Below, piece after piece: positions 40,164 to 43,576 of a stretch of DNA of 56,942 nt (position 1 is the stretch's first letter; each line of letters begins with the position of its first letter). Under the pieces are notes generated by a model. The model saw only the letters and a list, made by a program, of their open reading frames with translations. It made no database searches and had not been told where the DNA came from. The DNA is from Elusimicrobiaceae bacterium. GTDB lineage: Bacteria; Elusimicrobiota; Elusimicrobia; Elusimicrobiales; Elusimicrobiaceae. The translations under genes were made by a program, and so were the position numbers. The DNA is taken from positions 1 to 56,942 of the forward strand of contig JAFXGO010000033.1 in the NCBI GenBank assembly GCA_017520185.1, in the 5' to 3' direction.

Positions 40164-41390
40164 ATGAATATGAAACATGCAGCATGGGGCCTGATGGCCG
40201 TTTGCTTATTTTTGAGTTCTGCCACGTATGCGCAGAATGCTACGCAACACACCGCCAAACACCACCGTCGTTTGGCTCAGCAACAAGAGCTTCATCAATC
40301 TCACCCTTATTCTTTCGGGCAGGATTATTTACAGATGAAACAAGACTTGGCTGACAAAACAGGTATCCAATACGGTTTGGATATCAGTTATCTATTACAG
40401 CGCGGTGCGCCCAACGGTAAACAAACCGCCATTCAGGGGTACTATTATCCTTACATCACTTGGGATGTGTTTAAAGACACATTTTTGGGCTCGGGTCAAA
40501 TAAATGCCAACTACAATTTAATCCGTTATTGGGGCAGTAATGGCACCACTTTACAAAACCGTTTGGGTTTGGCCTCTGCGCCCAACGACTATACAGAAAA
40601 CGAAGAGATTTTTTCTCAGTTTTCCTACACACACACTTTGCCCAATCATTTGGATTGGCTTTCTGTGACGGTGGGTCAATTTCCGCTGTATAACTTTGAT
40701 GGTGGTAATTATTTGGACAATCAACAAACGGCTCTGTTAAATTTTGCCATGTCGCAAAACGCGTCTTCTACCTATCCCAGTGCCAGTTTTGGCGGATATG
40801 TGCAAGCGGCACCGGGCGATTGGACCTTTGCCGCCGGTTGGCAGGACGGGCAAAATATCAGCGGTCAAAATATACAATTAAACGATGCTTTTGACGGCAG
40901 ATACACTTGGTTCGGCTCTGCTTCTTACGCGCCCACCATTGCCGGATTAGGAGCAGGTCAATACAGTTTTTTGTATTACTATCAGCCGGCAGTAAAAGAG
41001 CAAGACGAAACCTCACGCGGTTGGTCAGTGAATATAAGCCAAAATTTGGGTGAAAAGTGGGCTCTTTCCGCACGCGCCAACGGTTCTGACGGGCATATTG
41101 CTCCTATAAAGAAATCTTTTGTCTTAGCAGCCAGTTTGCTTAATCCGTTGGATAGAAATACCAACGATGCCATCACCTTAGGTGTAGCTTATAACAGAAC
41201 GGATAAAAAAGCCTTAGGTTATCCGGCTGAATTTAAAAATAGCGAAATGGCGGTAGAATTGCAATGGGTGTGGGGTATTGGCAAATTGATGACCATTACA
41301 CCGGATATTCAGTTCTATCCCAAGTCTGCGGCAGGGAACGGTAATTCTTTTACCACTGTCGCCAGTTTACGCACAACAATTATGCTGTAA
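40164..41390 (+). CDS. aaxA: OprB-type carbohydrate-selective porin, AaxA-like
   Basis: A 408-residue outer-membrane porin with a signal peptide (hydrophobic to ATYAQ), a His/Gln-rich spacer and an OprB-like barrel: [49 protein letters not shown], and a C-terminal barrel strand ending RTTIML. In Chlamydia, AaxA is an OprB-family porin that lets arginine enter through the outer membrane and is encoded with AaxB and AaxC. The gene here is followed directly by homologues of both, in the same order. The ATG at 40164 has GGGGG upstream. Arginine or agmatine is therefore the likely permeant, by context. Confidence 0.8.
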
Positions 41391-41422
41391 AAAATAAATT
41401 AAGAGGGGTAAAGGAGGAAATT

Positions 41423-42034
41423 ATGCAAGAACTTCAATTAGGGACCAGATATCCTACATTAGCATTTATCACCGGAGGAGCCGGTCAGGCGATGGACGGC
41501 ATCCCGCCGCAGCCGTTTGAAACTTTCTGTTATGATTCTGCTTTAACGCAGGCCAAAATAGAAAATTTTAATATTGTGCCTTATACATCGGTACTGCCGA
41601 AGGAACTTTATAACAATATTGTGCCGGTAGATGCGGTGGCTGATCAGTTTAAACACGGGGCTGTGTTGGAAGTGATTATCGCCGGAAACGGTGCCAATAT
41701 GAGTGAGCATAAAGCCATTGCTACCGGTGTAGGTATTTGCTGGGGTAAAGACAAACAAGGCAATCTGATTGGTGGTTGGGCTGCTGAATATGTGGAATAT
41801 TTTGATACACCTATTGACGATGATATCGCACGCGGTCATTGTGCTATGTGGCTTAATAAATCATTAAATCATGAATTGGAACTGCGCGGTGTGGAAAAAC
41901 ACAGTGAGTTTCAAATGTGGCACAACTACATTAATATCACGCAACCGTTTGCGTATTGTTTGACGGCCTTGGGGTTTTTGAACTTTAAATTTGCACCCTT
42001 AGCTACGGCTAAAGGCGTCAAACCGTTGGACTAA
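41423..42034 (+). CDS. aaxB: Pyruvoyl-dependent arginine decarboxylase, AaxB-like
   Basis: Converts arginine to agmatine and CO2, consuming a proton. A 203-residue proenzyme. The self-cleavage site is visible as Thr55-Ser56 in PYTSVLPKE; Ser56 would become the pyruvoyl group. A Thr-Ser pair at this site is known from chlamydial AaxB, while archaeal PdaD has Ser-Ser. The conserved region [20 protein letters not shown] and the acidic EYVEYFD stretch fit the family. It lies 32 bases after the porin gene, with AAGGAGG upstream, and 25 bases before the antiporter gene. Confidence 0.93.
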
Positions 42035-42059
42035 AACTAAAATAGTTTTTGGGGGATTT

Positions 42060-43535
42060 ATGGGAGAAAAAAATCACAACACCGCCAATGCAAGTGCGGT
42101 CAAAAAAATGGGAGTCATAGGACTTGCCTGTATTGTGATCAGTTCTATGGTTGGGGGCGGGGTGTTCTCCCTCCCCCAAAACATGGCAGCCGGTGCCAGC
42201 GCGGGGGCAGTTATTTTGGCGTGGGTGATTACCGGTATCGGTATTTATTTTATCGCCAATACCTTTAGCATACTTTCACGCGTAAAGCCGGATTTGACGG
42301 CCGGTATTTATATGTACGCGCGAGAAGGCTTTGGCCCGTATGCAGGCTTTACCATCGGGTGGGGTTATTGGTTGTGCCAAATCTTTGGTAATGTGGGGTA
42401 TGCCGTTATTACAATGGACGCATTGAATTACTTTTTCCCCCCTTATTTTCAGGGCGGAAACAACTTGTGGTCCATTGTGGGCGGATCTGTGCTGATATGG
42501 GTGTTTAATTTTGTCGTCTTGCGCGGAGTACGGCAGGCCGCAATTATGAATATTATCGGAACAATTGGCAAATTAGTACCGCTTTTATGGTTTATTTTAG
42601 CCTTGCTTTTGAGTTTTAATTTTGACAAGTTTGATACCAACTTTTGGGGCAATCTTGCCGAAAACGGCAAAAGTTTAGGAGGATTGGGTACCCAATTAAA
42701 GAGTACAATGCTGGTGACGCTTTGGGCATTTATCGGTATTGAAGGCGCGGTAGTAATGTCTAACAGGGCCCGTAGCCAAAAAGACGTCAGCCGTGCTACT
42801 TTGTTGGGATTTTTGGGTTGTTTGGTGATTTATATAGGGCTTTCCGTCTTGCCGTTTGGATTTATGACACAGGCCGAAATTGCCGCTGTGCCCAACCCTT
42901 CCACCGCCGGTGTACTTGCCAAGTTGGTCGGCCCTTGGGGAGCGTGGCTAATGAATATAGGCCTTTTGATCGCGGTGCTTTCTTCGTGGTTGGCTTGGAC
43001 AATGATCACCGCCGAAATTCCGCAGGCTGCGGCAGAAAATGGCACATTTCCTAAGCAATTTGCCAGAGAAAATAAAAATGGTGCACCGTCTGTCTCTTTG
43101 TGGGTGACGAGTATCCTGATGCAACTAGCCATTTTGATGGTTTATTTTTCTAACAATGCTTGGAACACGATGCTCTCTATTACAGGGGTGATGGTGTTGC
43201 CTGCCTACATTTTCAGTACGGCTTATTTGTGGAAACTGACAGAAGACGGAGAATTTGCCAAATTAGCCCAAAAAGGCCGTGCTGCGGCTTTATTTACCGC
43301 TACGGTAGGTACTTTATACGGTTTATGGCTGGTGTATGCCGCAGGGATAAAATATTTATTCTTGGCGGTTATTTTCTTGGCCTTAGGCATACCGGTTTTT
43401 GTGTGGGCACGTAAGCAACAATCGGACGGACAAAACGTATTTAGCGGGAAAGGAGAAGTAGTTTTTATGCTGCTTTTGGCACTGTGTGCATTGGTGGCTA
43501 TTTATGTGTTTGCCAGAGGGTTGGTGAGCCTATAA
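42060..43535 (+). CDS. aaxC: Arginine/agmatine antiporter, AaxC-like (APC superfamily)
   Basis: A 491-residue inner-membrane exchanger with about 12 helices. The unwound helix 1 motif [20 protein letters not shown] is the APC signature. Helix 6-7 region [20 protein letters not shown] carries the Glu-rich gate region of basic amino-acid antiporters. Family members AdiC, ArcD-type and AaxC swap arginine for agmatine or ornithine. The context (porin and arginine decarboxylase in the same operon) points to arginine/agmatine. GGGGGA upstream of the ATG. Together the three genes would form an arginine-dependent acid resistance or arginine-scavenging cycle. Confidence 0.88.
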
Positions 43536-43550
43536 AAAGGATTCGTTTTA

Positions 43551-43576
43551 AAGCCTCGCTTCGGCGGGGCTTTTTT
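43551..43576 (+). terminator. Terminator of the aax operon
   Basis: AAGCCTCGC / GCGGGGCTT stem (one G-T pair) with TTC loop and TTTTTT. Confidence 0.9.

Follow-up and report, generated by a model that had tools for sequence, protein, structure and literature searches.

The aaxA, aaxB and aaxC genes of Chlamydia lie in this order and are held to have been gained by the Chlamydiaceae through horizontal transfer (PMC2720952). As far as the AAX passages of that paper go, AaxA of Chlamydia pneumoniae stimulates the system and AaxB cleaves itself at a serine; in strains of Chlamydia trachomatis aaxB was inactivated independently, and aaxC in some of them. According to the same passages, aaxA of Chlamydia is under moderate purifying selection, relaxed selection was not evident for the aax genes, and one aaxC is active (PMC2720952); the chlamydial selection data thus do not set the porin apart. 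A cluster of aaxB, an antiporter gene and hdcA in Bacteroides stercorirosoris has brought AaxB outside Chlamydia into print; there aaxB adjoins an aaxC-type antiporter gene, as in the locus described here, but a histidine decarboxylase is added and the passage on the cluster names no porin (PMC8465708). In the enteric AdiA-AdiC system arginine is taken up and decarboxylated and agmatine leaves the cell, although AdiA is a pyridoxal phosphate enzyme. Here we describe an aaxABC operon in a stretch of 56,942 nt from an Elusimicrobiaceae bacterium (contig JAFXGO010000033.1 of assembly GCA_017520185.1), which is called the window in the following. We consider the operon, with a probability of about 0.82, to encode arginine:agmatine exchange of the AAX type, as suggested by gene order, protein families, the fold of the decarboxylase, gating residues of the antiporter and the co-occurrence of aaxB and aaxC.

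The three open reading frames (ORFs) are intact and occupy positions 40164-43535 of the window (+), with intergenic gaps of 32 and 25 bases. The original prediction of a porin, a pyruvoyl decarboxylase and an antiporter in the chlamydial aaxABC order and with short gaps was thus confirmed by the ORFs and by the families of their products. We scanned sequenced genomes for relatives and looked at the best 80 of 272. All three genes were present on one strand in 51 of the 80 loci, 45 from Elusimicrobiota and 6 titled only 'uncultured bacterium'. The order was A-B-C in 51 of 51, and likewise in the Elusimicrobiaceae loci that were read, indicating that it is not due to chance.

Some aaxB match was found in 147 of 340 Elusimicrobiota genomes. 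Strong matches (E below 1e-100) were limited to 57 genomes of a single family, 47 from one genus and 10 from a second. The remaining matches, among those listed, were weak (about 25-33% identity) and presumably represent other PvlArgDC proteins; the match in genome G041 was a contig-edge fragment. The 80-locus and the 340-genome sets overlap (aaxB of locus L053 has the same contig coordinates as aaxB on contig C13 of genome G030), and the two counts are not independent. Within the family of 90 genomes, aaxB and an aaxC orthologue were each present in 57 genomes and both in 56, with one aaxC-only and one aaxB-only genome; orthologues were defined as the upper of two identity groups (72% and up versus 47-55%). 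The Fisher p value for this co-occurrence was 4e-22, which is overstated, since the genomes are kin. The AaxA model matched in 68 of the 90 genomes, including 57 of 57 with strong aaxB, with some of the aaxC and aaxA matches being partial at contig ends. Among the best 80 of 272 relatives, the closest record, with an AaxB 99% identical to that of the window, was an Elusimicrobiaceae metagenome-assembled genome (MAG) from roe deer rectum, in line with the Elusimicrobiota named in the original prediction, and many records of relatives name rumen, rectum, colon or faeces as source. The breadth of the putative operon in two Elusimicrobiaceae genera is new here: literature searches for aaxB, or for Elusimicrobia in connection with agmatine, arginine decarboxylase or the fermentation of amino acids, yielded nothing on the operon in this group, as judged by title and abstract start with partial coverage. 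PMC8503770 contributed nothing of use, and PMC12484125 names the enzyme in its reference list only.

AaxB passed the Pfam PvlArgDC model (84.3 bits, cut-off 22.7). All seven PDB matches of its predicted structure at E<=0.001 were PvlArgDC of M. jannaschii (TM-score 0.51-0.65), and a profile search of the sequence against solved structures gave no match (E up to 0.1). The Thr55-Ser56 pair that had been pointed out earlier is present in the window decarboxylase and was invariant in both of our alignments, which comprised 23 and 37 sequences (window in each). By analogy to AaxB of C. pneumoniae, the proenzyme would be cleaved between these two residues. We take it, as did the original prediction, that a threonine precedes the cleavage serine in chlamydial AaxB as well; the published passage names the serine. 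A second PvlArgDC encoded by the same genome is 32% identical to AaxB over 131 columns and has Ser-Ser in place of Thr-Ser. It scored 128.6 bits on the classical PvlArgDC model TIGR00286 (cut-off 106.95) and 201 bits in the genome search.

AaxC passed TIGR00905 (568.4 bits, cut-off 409.05), and AdiC was its best solved relative when the sequence was compared to the PDB (E 2.5e-36). On the AdiC equivalog NF007929 it stayed below the cut-off (167 of 574 bits). The roles of the AdiC gating residues Trp202, Glu208 and Trp293 are described in the passages of PMC6199258 on this protein. Their equivalents, paired by hand from a sequence alignment of AdiC and the window protein, were identical in 53 of 53 aaxB-linked antiporters. 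The grouping of the antiporter had been set beforehand as a test: AaxC sat with the aaxB-linked antiporters, apart from the PSD-linked and ODC-linked ones tried. The Elusimicrobiaceae antiporters formed one group (support 97/100), and support for the whole gut aaxB-linked group was weak (48/68). A single clade of aaxB-linked antiporters including the one of Lichenicola was rejected (p-AU 2.3e-26, with a long-branch warning).

The AaxA protein gave only one NCBIfam match, NF051888 'porin AaxA' (258.4 bits, E 1.4e-76). It passed Pfam OprB (PF04966, 44.4 bits, cut-off 22.9) and has, judged by eye, a signal-peptide-like N-terminus. Its predicted structure is a barrel (mean pLDDT 78.8), for which OprB of P. 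putida (4gey) was the best PDB match (E 2.6e-18, TM 0.68-0.70). A sequence search against solved structures gave no match (E up to 1). The OprB cut-off and the fold match bear out the assignment as an OprB-type porin.

Several observations weigh against the assignment of the operon to arginine:agmatine exchange. The score of AaxA is far from the NF051888 equivalog cut-off of 600 bits, a value that was reached by 0 of 90 family genomes and 0 of 29 other genomes. AaxB stayed far below TIGR00286 (27.2 bits) and also below NF009064 (28.2 bits, cut-off 207). Its model is modest, with a mean pLDDT of 69.5 and low confidence around the cleavage site, and deviates from its M. jannaschii PvlArgDC matches by an rmsd of 6-7 A. 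On the arginine-ornithine model TIGR03810, AaxC reached 518.7 bits, almost as much as on TIGR00905, although the cut-off of 591 was not reached, and the equivalent of AdiC Ser26 is Gly. Because of this high score and the Gly, the substrate specificity of AaxC is not fixed by sequence. In three MAGs titled Rickettsiales (L092, L095 and L102), aaxB was 80-81% identical to that of the window and had no aaxC-like neighbour. Finally, eight genomes have an AaxA-type porin and lack both aaxB and an aaxC orthologue, with both flanks of the porin gene readable. The original prediction of an arginine-agmatine cycle is supported in part: gene order, families, decarboxylase fold, gating Trp/Glu and aaxB-aaxC co-occurrence speak for it, and a strict tie of the porin to the cycle is weakened. 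The operon is of a kind already known; we regard the observation as sound and the functional reading as likely right.

In the proposed cycle, AaxA would admit arginine across the outer membrane and AaxC would import it in exchange for agmatine from the cytoplasm. Self-cleavage between Thr55 and Ser56 would provide AaxB with its pyruvoyl cofactor, and the mature enzyme would decarboxylate arginine and thereby use up one cytoplasmic proton. With each turn the cell would lose one proton and, on balance, one positive charge, which could buffer the pH and/or support the membrane potential, while the one-for-one exchange would yield no net arginine. Cleavage, activity, transport and physiological role are all modelled on the AAX system of C. 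pneumoniae and on AdiAC. Support of pH or membrane potential is our best guess for the role, and a release of agmatine toward the host is possible as a side effect. Since gut commensal lineages carry aaxABC, pH or energy handling would be the simpler first function. This takes aaxABC beyond the frame of Chlamydia and host nitric oxide.

The porin could also be a general one that stands beside a two-gene aaxBC unit by neighbourhood only. This explanation is compatible with an exchange role of AaxB and AaxC, and we rate it somewhat below even odds. It draws on the eight genomes with a lone porin, which are 87 to 99% complete. In seven of them (G021, G070, G013, G057, G075, G063 and G051; loci L133, L134 and L136-L140) the porin gene is flanked by the lipoprotein/rmuC side and by sir2, a position that it also has in many aaxABC genomes. 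The eighth, G099 (L135, 99% complete), has it at the site used by the aaxABC genomes G094 and G097; its flanking proteins are 86-99% and its AaxA 78-84% identical to theirs, and aaxB and aaxC are missing. An AaxA tree rooted on alphaproteobacterial porins gave four state changes, and four were forced by supported branches. This tree was built without the remote rows L141 and L142, the duplicates L147 and L149, 12 alphaproteobacterial rows, and L143, L144 and L146, where the porin gene is close to or at the end of a contig (L146 also has a fragment of aaxB); a larger quick tree including all of these rows had the same nesting. One gain followed by several losses of aaxBC would be the simpler reading of the tree; several gains, or an exchange of alleles between members of the family, are possible as well.

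Further support for a porin placed by neighbourhood comes from the more distant relatives. Alphaproteobacteria (Pseudomonadota) accounted for 27 of the 80 loci: 22 had B-C without a porin in the stretch, 2 had B-C with a divergent porin gene and 3 had aaxB alone. Both Desulfovibrionaceae loci (2 of 80) had B-C with no neighbouring porin gene, and the AaxA model gave no match in these two genomes. On the other hand, every family genome with strong aaxB has a porin match, and the A-B-C order was constant in the loci read. In the alphaproteobacterial order of genome G364, aaxB was present in 7 of 12 genomes, all seven with a divergent porin gene right beside aaxBC (L105 and L127 come from two of these genomes). 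The stimulation by AaxA in C. pneumoniae, in the passage cited above, also speaks against a mere neighbour. The proposed part of the porin in arginine exchange is thus upheld by its presence in all aaxB genomes of the family but loosened by the eight relatives with a porin only and the alphaproteobacterial loci with aaxBC only.

We concluded that AaxA is probably a porin of broader use on which the arginine cycle draws, and not a part dedicated to this cycle. As the porin was kept without aaxBC, it may have another function besides arginine exchange. The apparent loss of aaxBC in gut lineages is similar to the decay that was reported for these two genes in C. trachomatis, a comparison that is drawn in this analysis. 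The apparent repeated uncoupling of AaxA from AaxBC is new here, and with lone porins on four separate branches the other role of AaxA becomes a testable question. AaxA tends to diverge faster than the neighbouring genes: it was 66-84% identical between L135 and L033/L034, L134 and L052, and L133 and L051, while most flanks were 75-99% identical, with 56-67% for three ORFs that flank the porin gene of L133 to one side. A tandem pair of AaxA-type porin genes was found directly before aaxB at L145:5675-8250 (genome G023, also L029; L074 is apparently the same contig).

A supply of polyamines offers a different role for the decarboxylase. Agmatine made by AaxB would then stay inside as a putrescine precursor, and AaxC would exchange another pair such as arginine/ornithine. 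The TIGR03810 score of AaxC fits such an exchange, even if the cut-off was not reached, and a Lichenicola plasmid has aaxC-aaxB followed by aguB-aguA, a route from agmatine to putrescine. But in the genome of the window the second PvlArgDC gene adjoins an agmatinase gene (TIGR01230, 196.8 bits, cut-off 174.3), and because of this separate pair aaxB is not needed for putrescine. Arginine deiminase was found in 0 of 31 genomes, unlike in the ArcD type of arginine-ornithine antiport, which goes with the arginine deiminase pathway and from which AaxC also differs by its TIGR03810 score. Agmatine deiminase gave no match in the window's genome, which is 95.5% complete, and was present in 4 of 19 family genomes tried; these absences are limited by the incompleteness of MAGs. 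Argininosuccinate synthase stayed below the cut-off in the window's genome (25 of 27 bits) and passed it in 0 of 19 family genomes, 3 of 12 genomes tried of the next family and 14 of 14 controls. With neither deiminase found and this synthase below the cut-off, arginine from outside is likely needed. Taken together, we consider polyamine supply unlikely as the role of the operon and prefer the arginine:agmatine exchange.

The claim that the operon lies outside Chlamydiae holds, but it is less surprising than it had seemed: AaxB-type genes are common in two Elusimicrobiaceae genera, occur in MAGs of Alphaproteobacteria and Desulfovibrionaceae, and include the printed Bacteroides case. The alphaproteobacterial and Desulfovibrionaceae relatives had an AaxB about 78-86% and a full-length AaxC 63-70% identical to those of the window, with B then C as here; unlike here, their porin gene is divergent, elsewhere or not found. 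In even samples of wider phyla, aaxB of this type was rare: for the phylum of G347 the centre genome itself was the one match among 398 genomes, and for that of G356 there were 6 matches among 247, a strong one in the centre genome and five weak ones at 25-29% identity. Such patchiness at about 80% AaxB identity would fit a horizontal spread among gut bacteria. In the AaxB tree, 10 of 55 inner branches were supported; the protein is too short and conserved for this, and therefore we make no claim on donor or direction. With a GC content of 0.44-0.46, the operon departs by no more than about 1.4 standard deviations (sd) from the 1-kb blocks of the window (0.42, sd 0.032), and composition thus gives no sign of transfer.

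No record titled Chlamydia was among the best 80 of 272 relatives. A provisional AaxB sequence of C. pneumoniae, which probably contains at least one error, was about 74% identical to that of the window and about as close to Alphaproteobacteria, and it was placed without support in the AaxB tree; it served as a lead only. On NF051888, the chlamydial AaxA profile, Elusimicrobiaceae porins in aaxABC genomes scored 227.6-287 bits, with lower values for the G040 pieces at contig ends, and the eight porins without aaxBC 167.5-277.6 bits. Alphaproteobacterial porins beside aaxBC scored 327-333 bits, and porins elsewhere in aaxB genomes 262-328 bits, save two weak ones (135 bits and a 46-bit fragment). 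Judged by these scores, Elusimicrobiaceae porins are not nearer to the chlamydial one than alphaproteobacterial porins are. Compared with the Chlamydiaceae, the same three gene kinds stand in the same order and the AaxA model is the only NCBIfam match of the porin; differences are the score below the equivalog cut-off, the gut host, the second PvlArgDC with agmatinase and the relatives with a lone porin. The shared order would then be ancient, or the genes came to lie in this way by coincidence. That aaxABC passed directly and recently between Chlamydiaceae and Elusimicrobiaceae is very improbable, since among the best 80 of 272 relatives the closest outside the family are the alphaproteobacterial and Desulfovibrionaceae ones and alphaproteobacterial porins beside aaxBC score higher on the chlamydial model (329.5 and 327.1 bits) than that of the window. 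The common order and the horizontal acquisition proposed for the Chlamydiaceae genes would speak for such a transfer (order and acquisition from the cited passages of PMC2720952). Tentatively, and with slightly more doubt than confidence, we propose that aaxABC is a cassette of gut bacteria, that it has been passed around between Elusimicrobiaceae, Alphaproteobacteria and Desulfovibrionaceae and that it formed the kind of pool used by the ancestor of the Chlamydiaceae, with AaxA having a second, more durable function. If so, this function would explain why aaxBC was lost at least four times in gut lineages with aaxA being kept, much as aaxB, and in some strains aaxC, was inactivated in C. trachomatis, and the gut aaxABC set would provide candidate source lineages for the chlamydial genes.

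No mobile vehicle for aaxABC was found among the phages, viral contigs and plasmids searched. The phage search gave no match, and none of 48 pattern matches in viral contigs was a relative. Among plasmids, aaxB was present in Lichenicola only and no AaxA-type porin was found; AaxC-like antiporters occurred in 139 plasmid records, all under 60% identity. The plasmid of the lichen bacterium Lichenicola cladoniae (L174:4468-8628) carries aaxC-aaxB-aguB-aguA together with transposase genes, and its AaxB is 71% identical to that of the window.

The window is contig C33 of a 1.4 Mb genome, and the features of the locus are given in Table 1. The gene next downstream of aaxC, past the terminator-like hairpin, is sir2, encoding a Sir2 protein by family match. 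The region had 11 terminator-like sites versus 6.4 (sd 2.2) in shuffles, and the hairpin alone is no evidence of function. The promoter scan was at shuffle level (11 promoter-like matches versus 10.4, sd 3.3).

Table 1. Features of the aaxABC locus in the window.
Feature	Position	Strand	Evidence
aaxA, OprB-fold outer-membrane porin of AaxA type, 408 aa	40164..41390	+	ORF, NF051888, OprB, predicted barrel
aaxB, pyruvoyl-dependent arginine decarboxylase proenzyme, 203 aa	41423..42034	+	ORF, PvlArgDC, PDB fold matches
Thr55-Ser56 codons, predicted self-cleavage pair	41585..41590	+	sequence; invariant in alignment
aaxC, basic amino acid/polyamine antiporter, predicted arginine/agmatine exchanger, 491 aa	42060..43535	+	ORF, TIGR00905, AdiC relative
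terminator-like hairpin 3' of aaxC	43550..43573	+	pattern scan

In many relatives, a gene for a voltage-gated-type ion channel (PF00520, 88 bits; L136:5893-6648 (-)) lies between aaxC or aaxA and sir2. No PF00520 match was found in the window between 43535 and 43611, and the gene is present in L055, the AaxC of which is 95% identical. Two aaxC genes looked decayed: L094:1087-1383 (MAG from horse faeces) has a large internal deletion and L090:6607-8040 has frameshifts, for which decay in progress or errors of MAG assembly are possible. Tandem antiporters of a second type, 49-53% identical to AaxC, were present in L181, L182 and L185 of the other genus, with no adjacent decarboxylase recognised by eye. 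Two plasmids carry an AaxC-like antiporter gene paired with a gene for a 'phosphatidylserine decarboxylase family' protein (L187:4082-6944 and L188:3998-6798), perhaps another decarboxylase-antiporter system.

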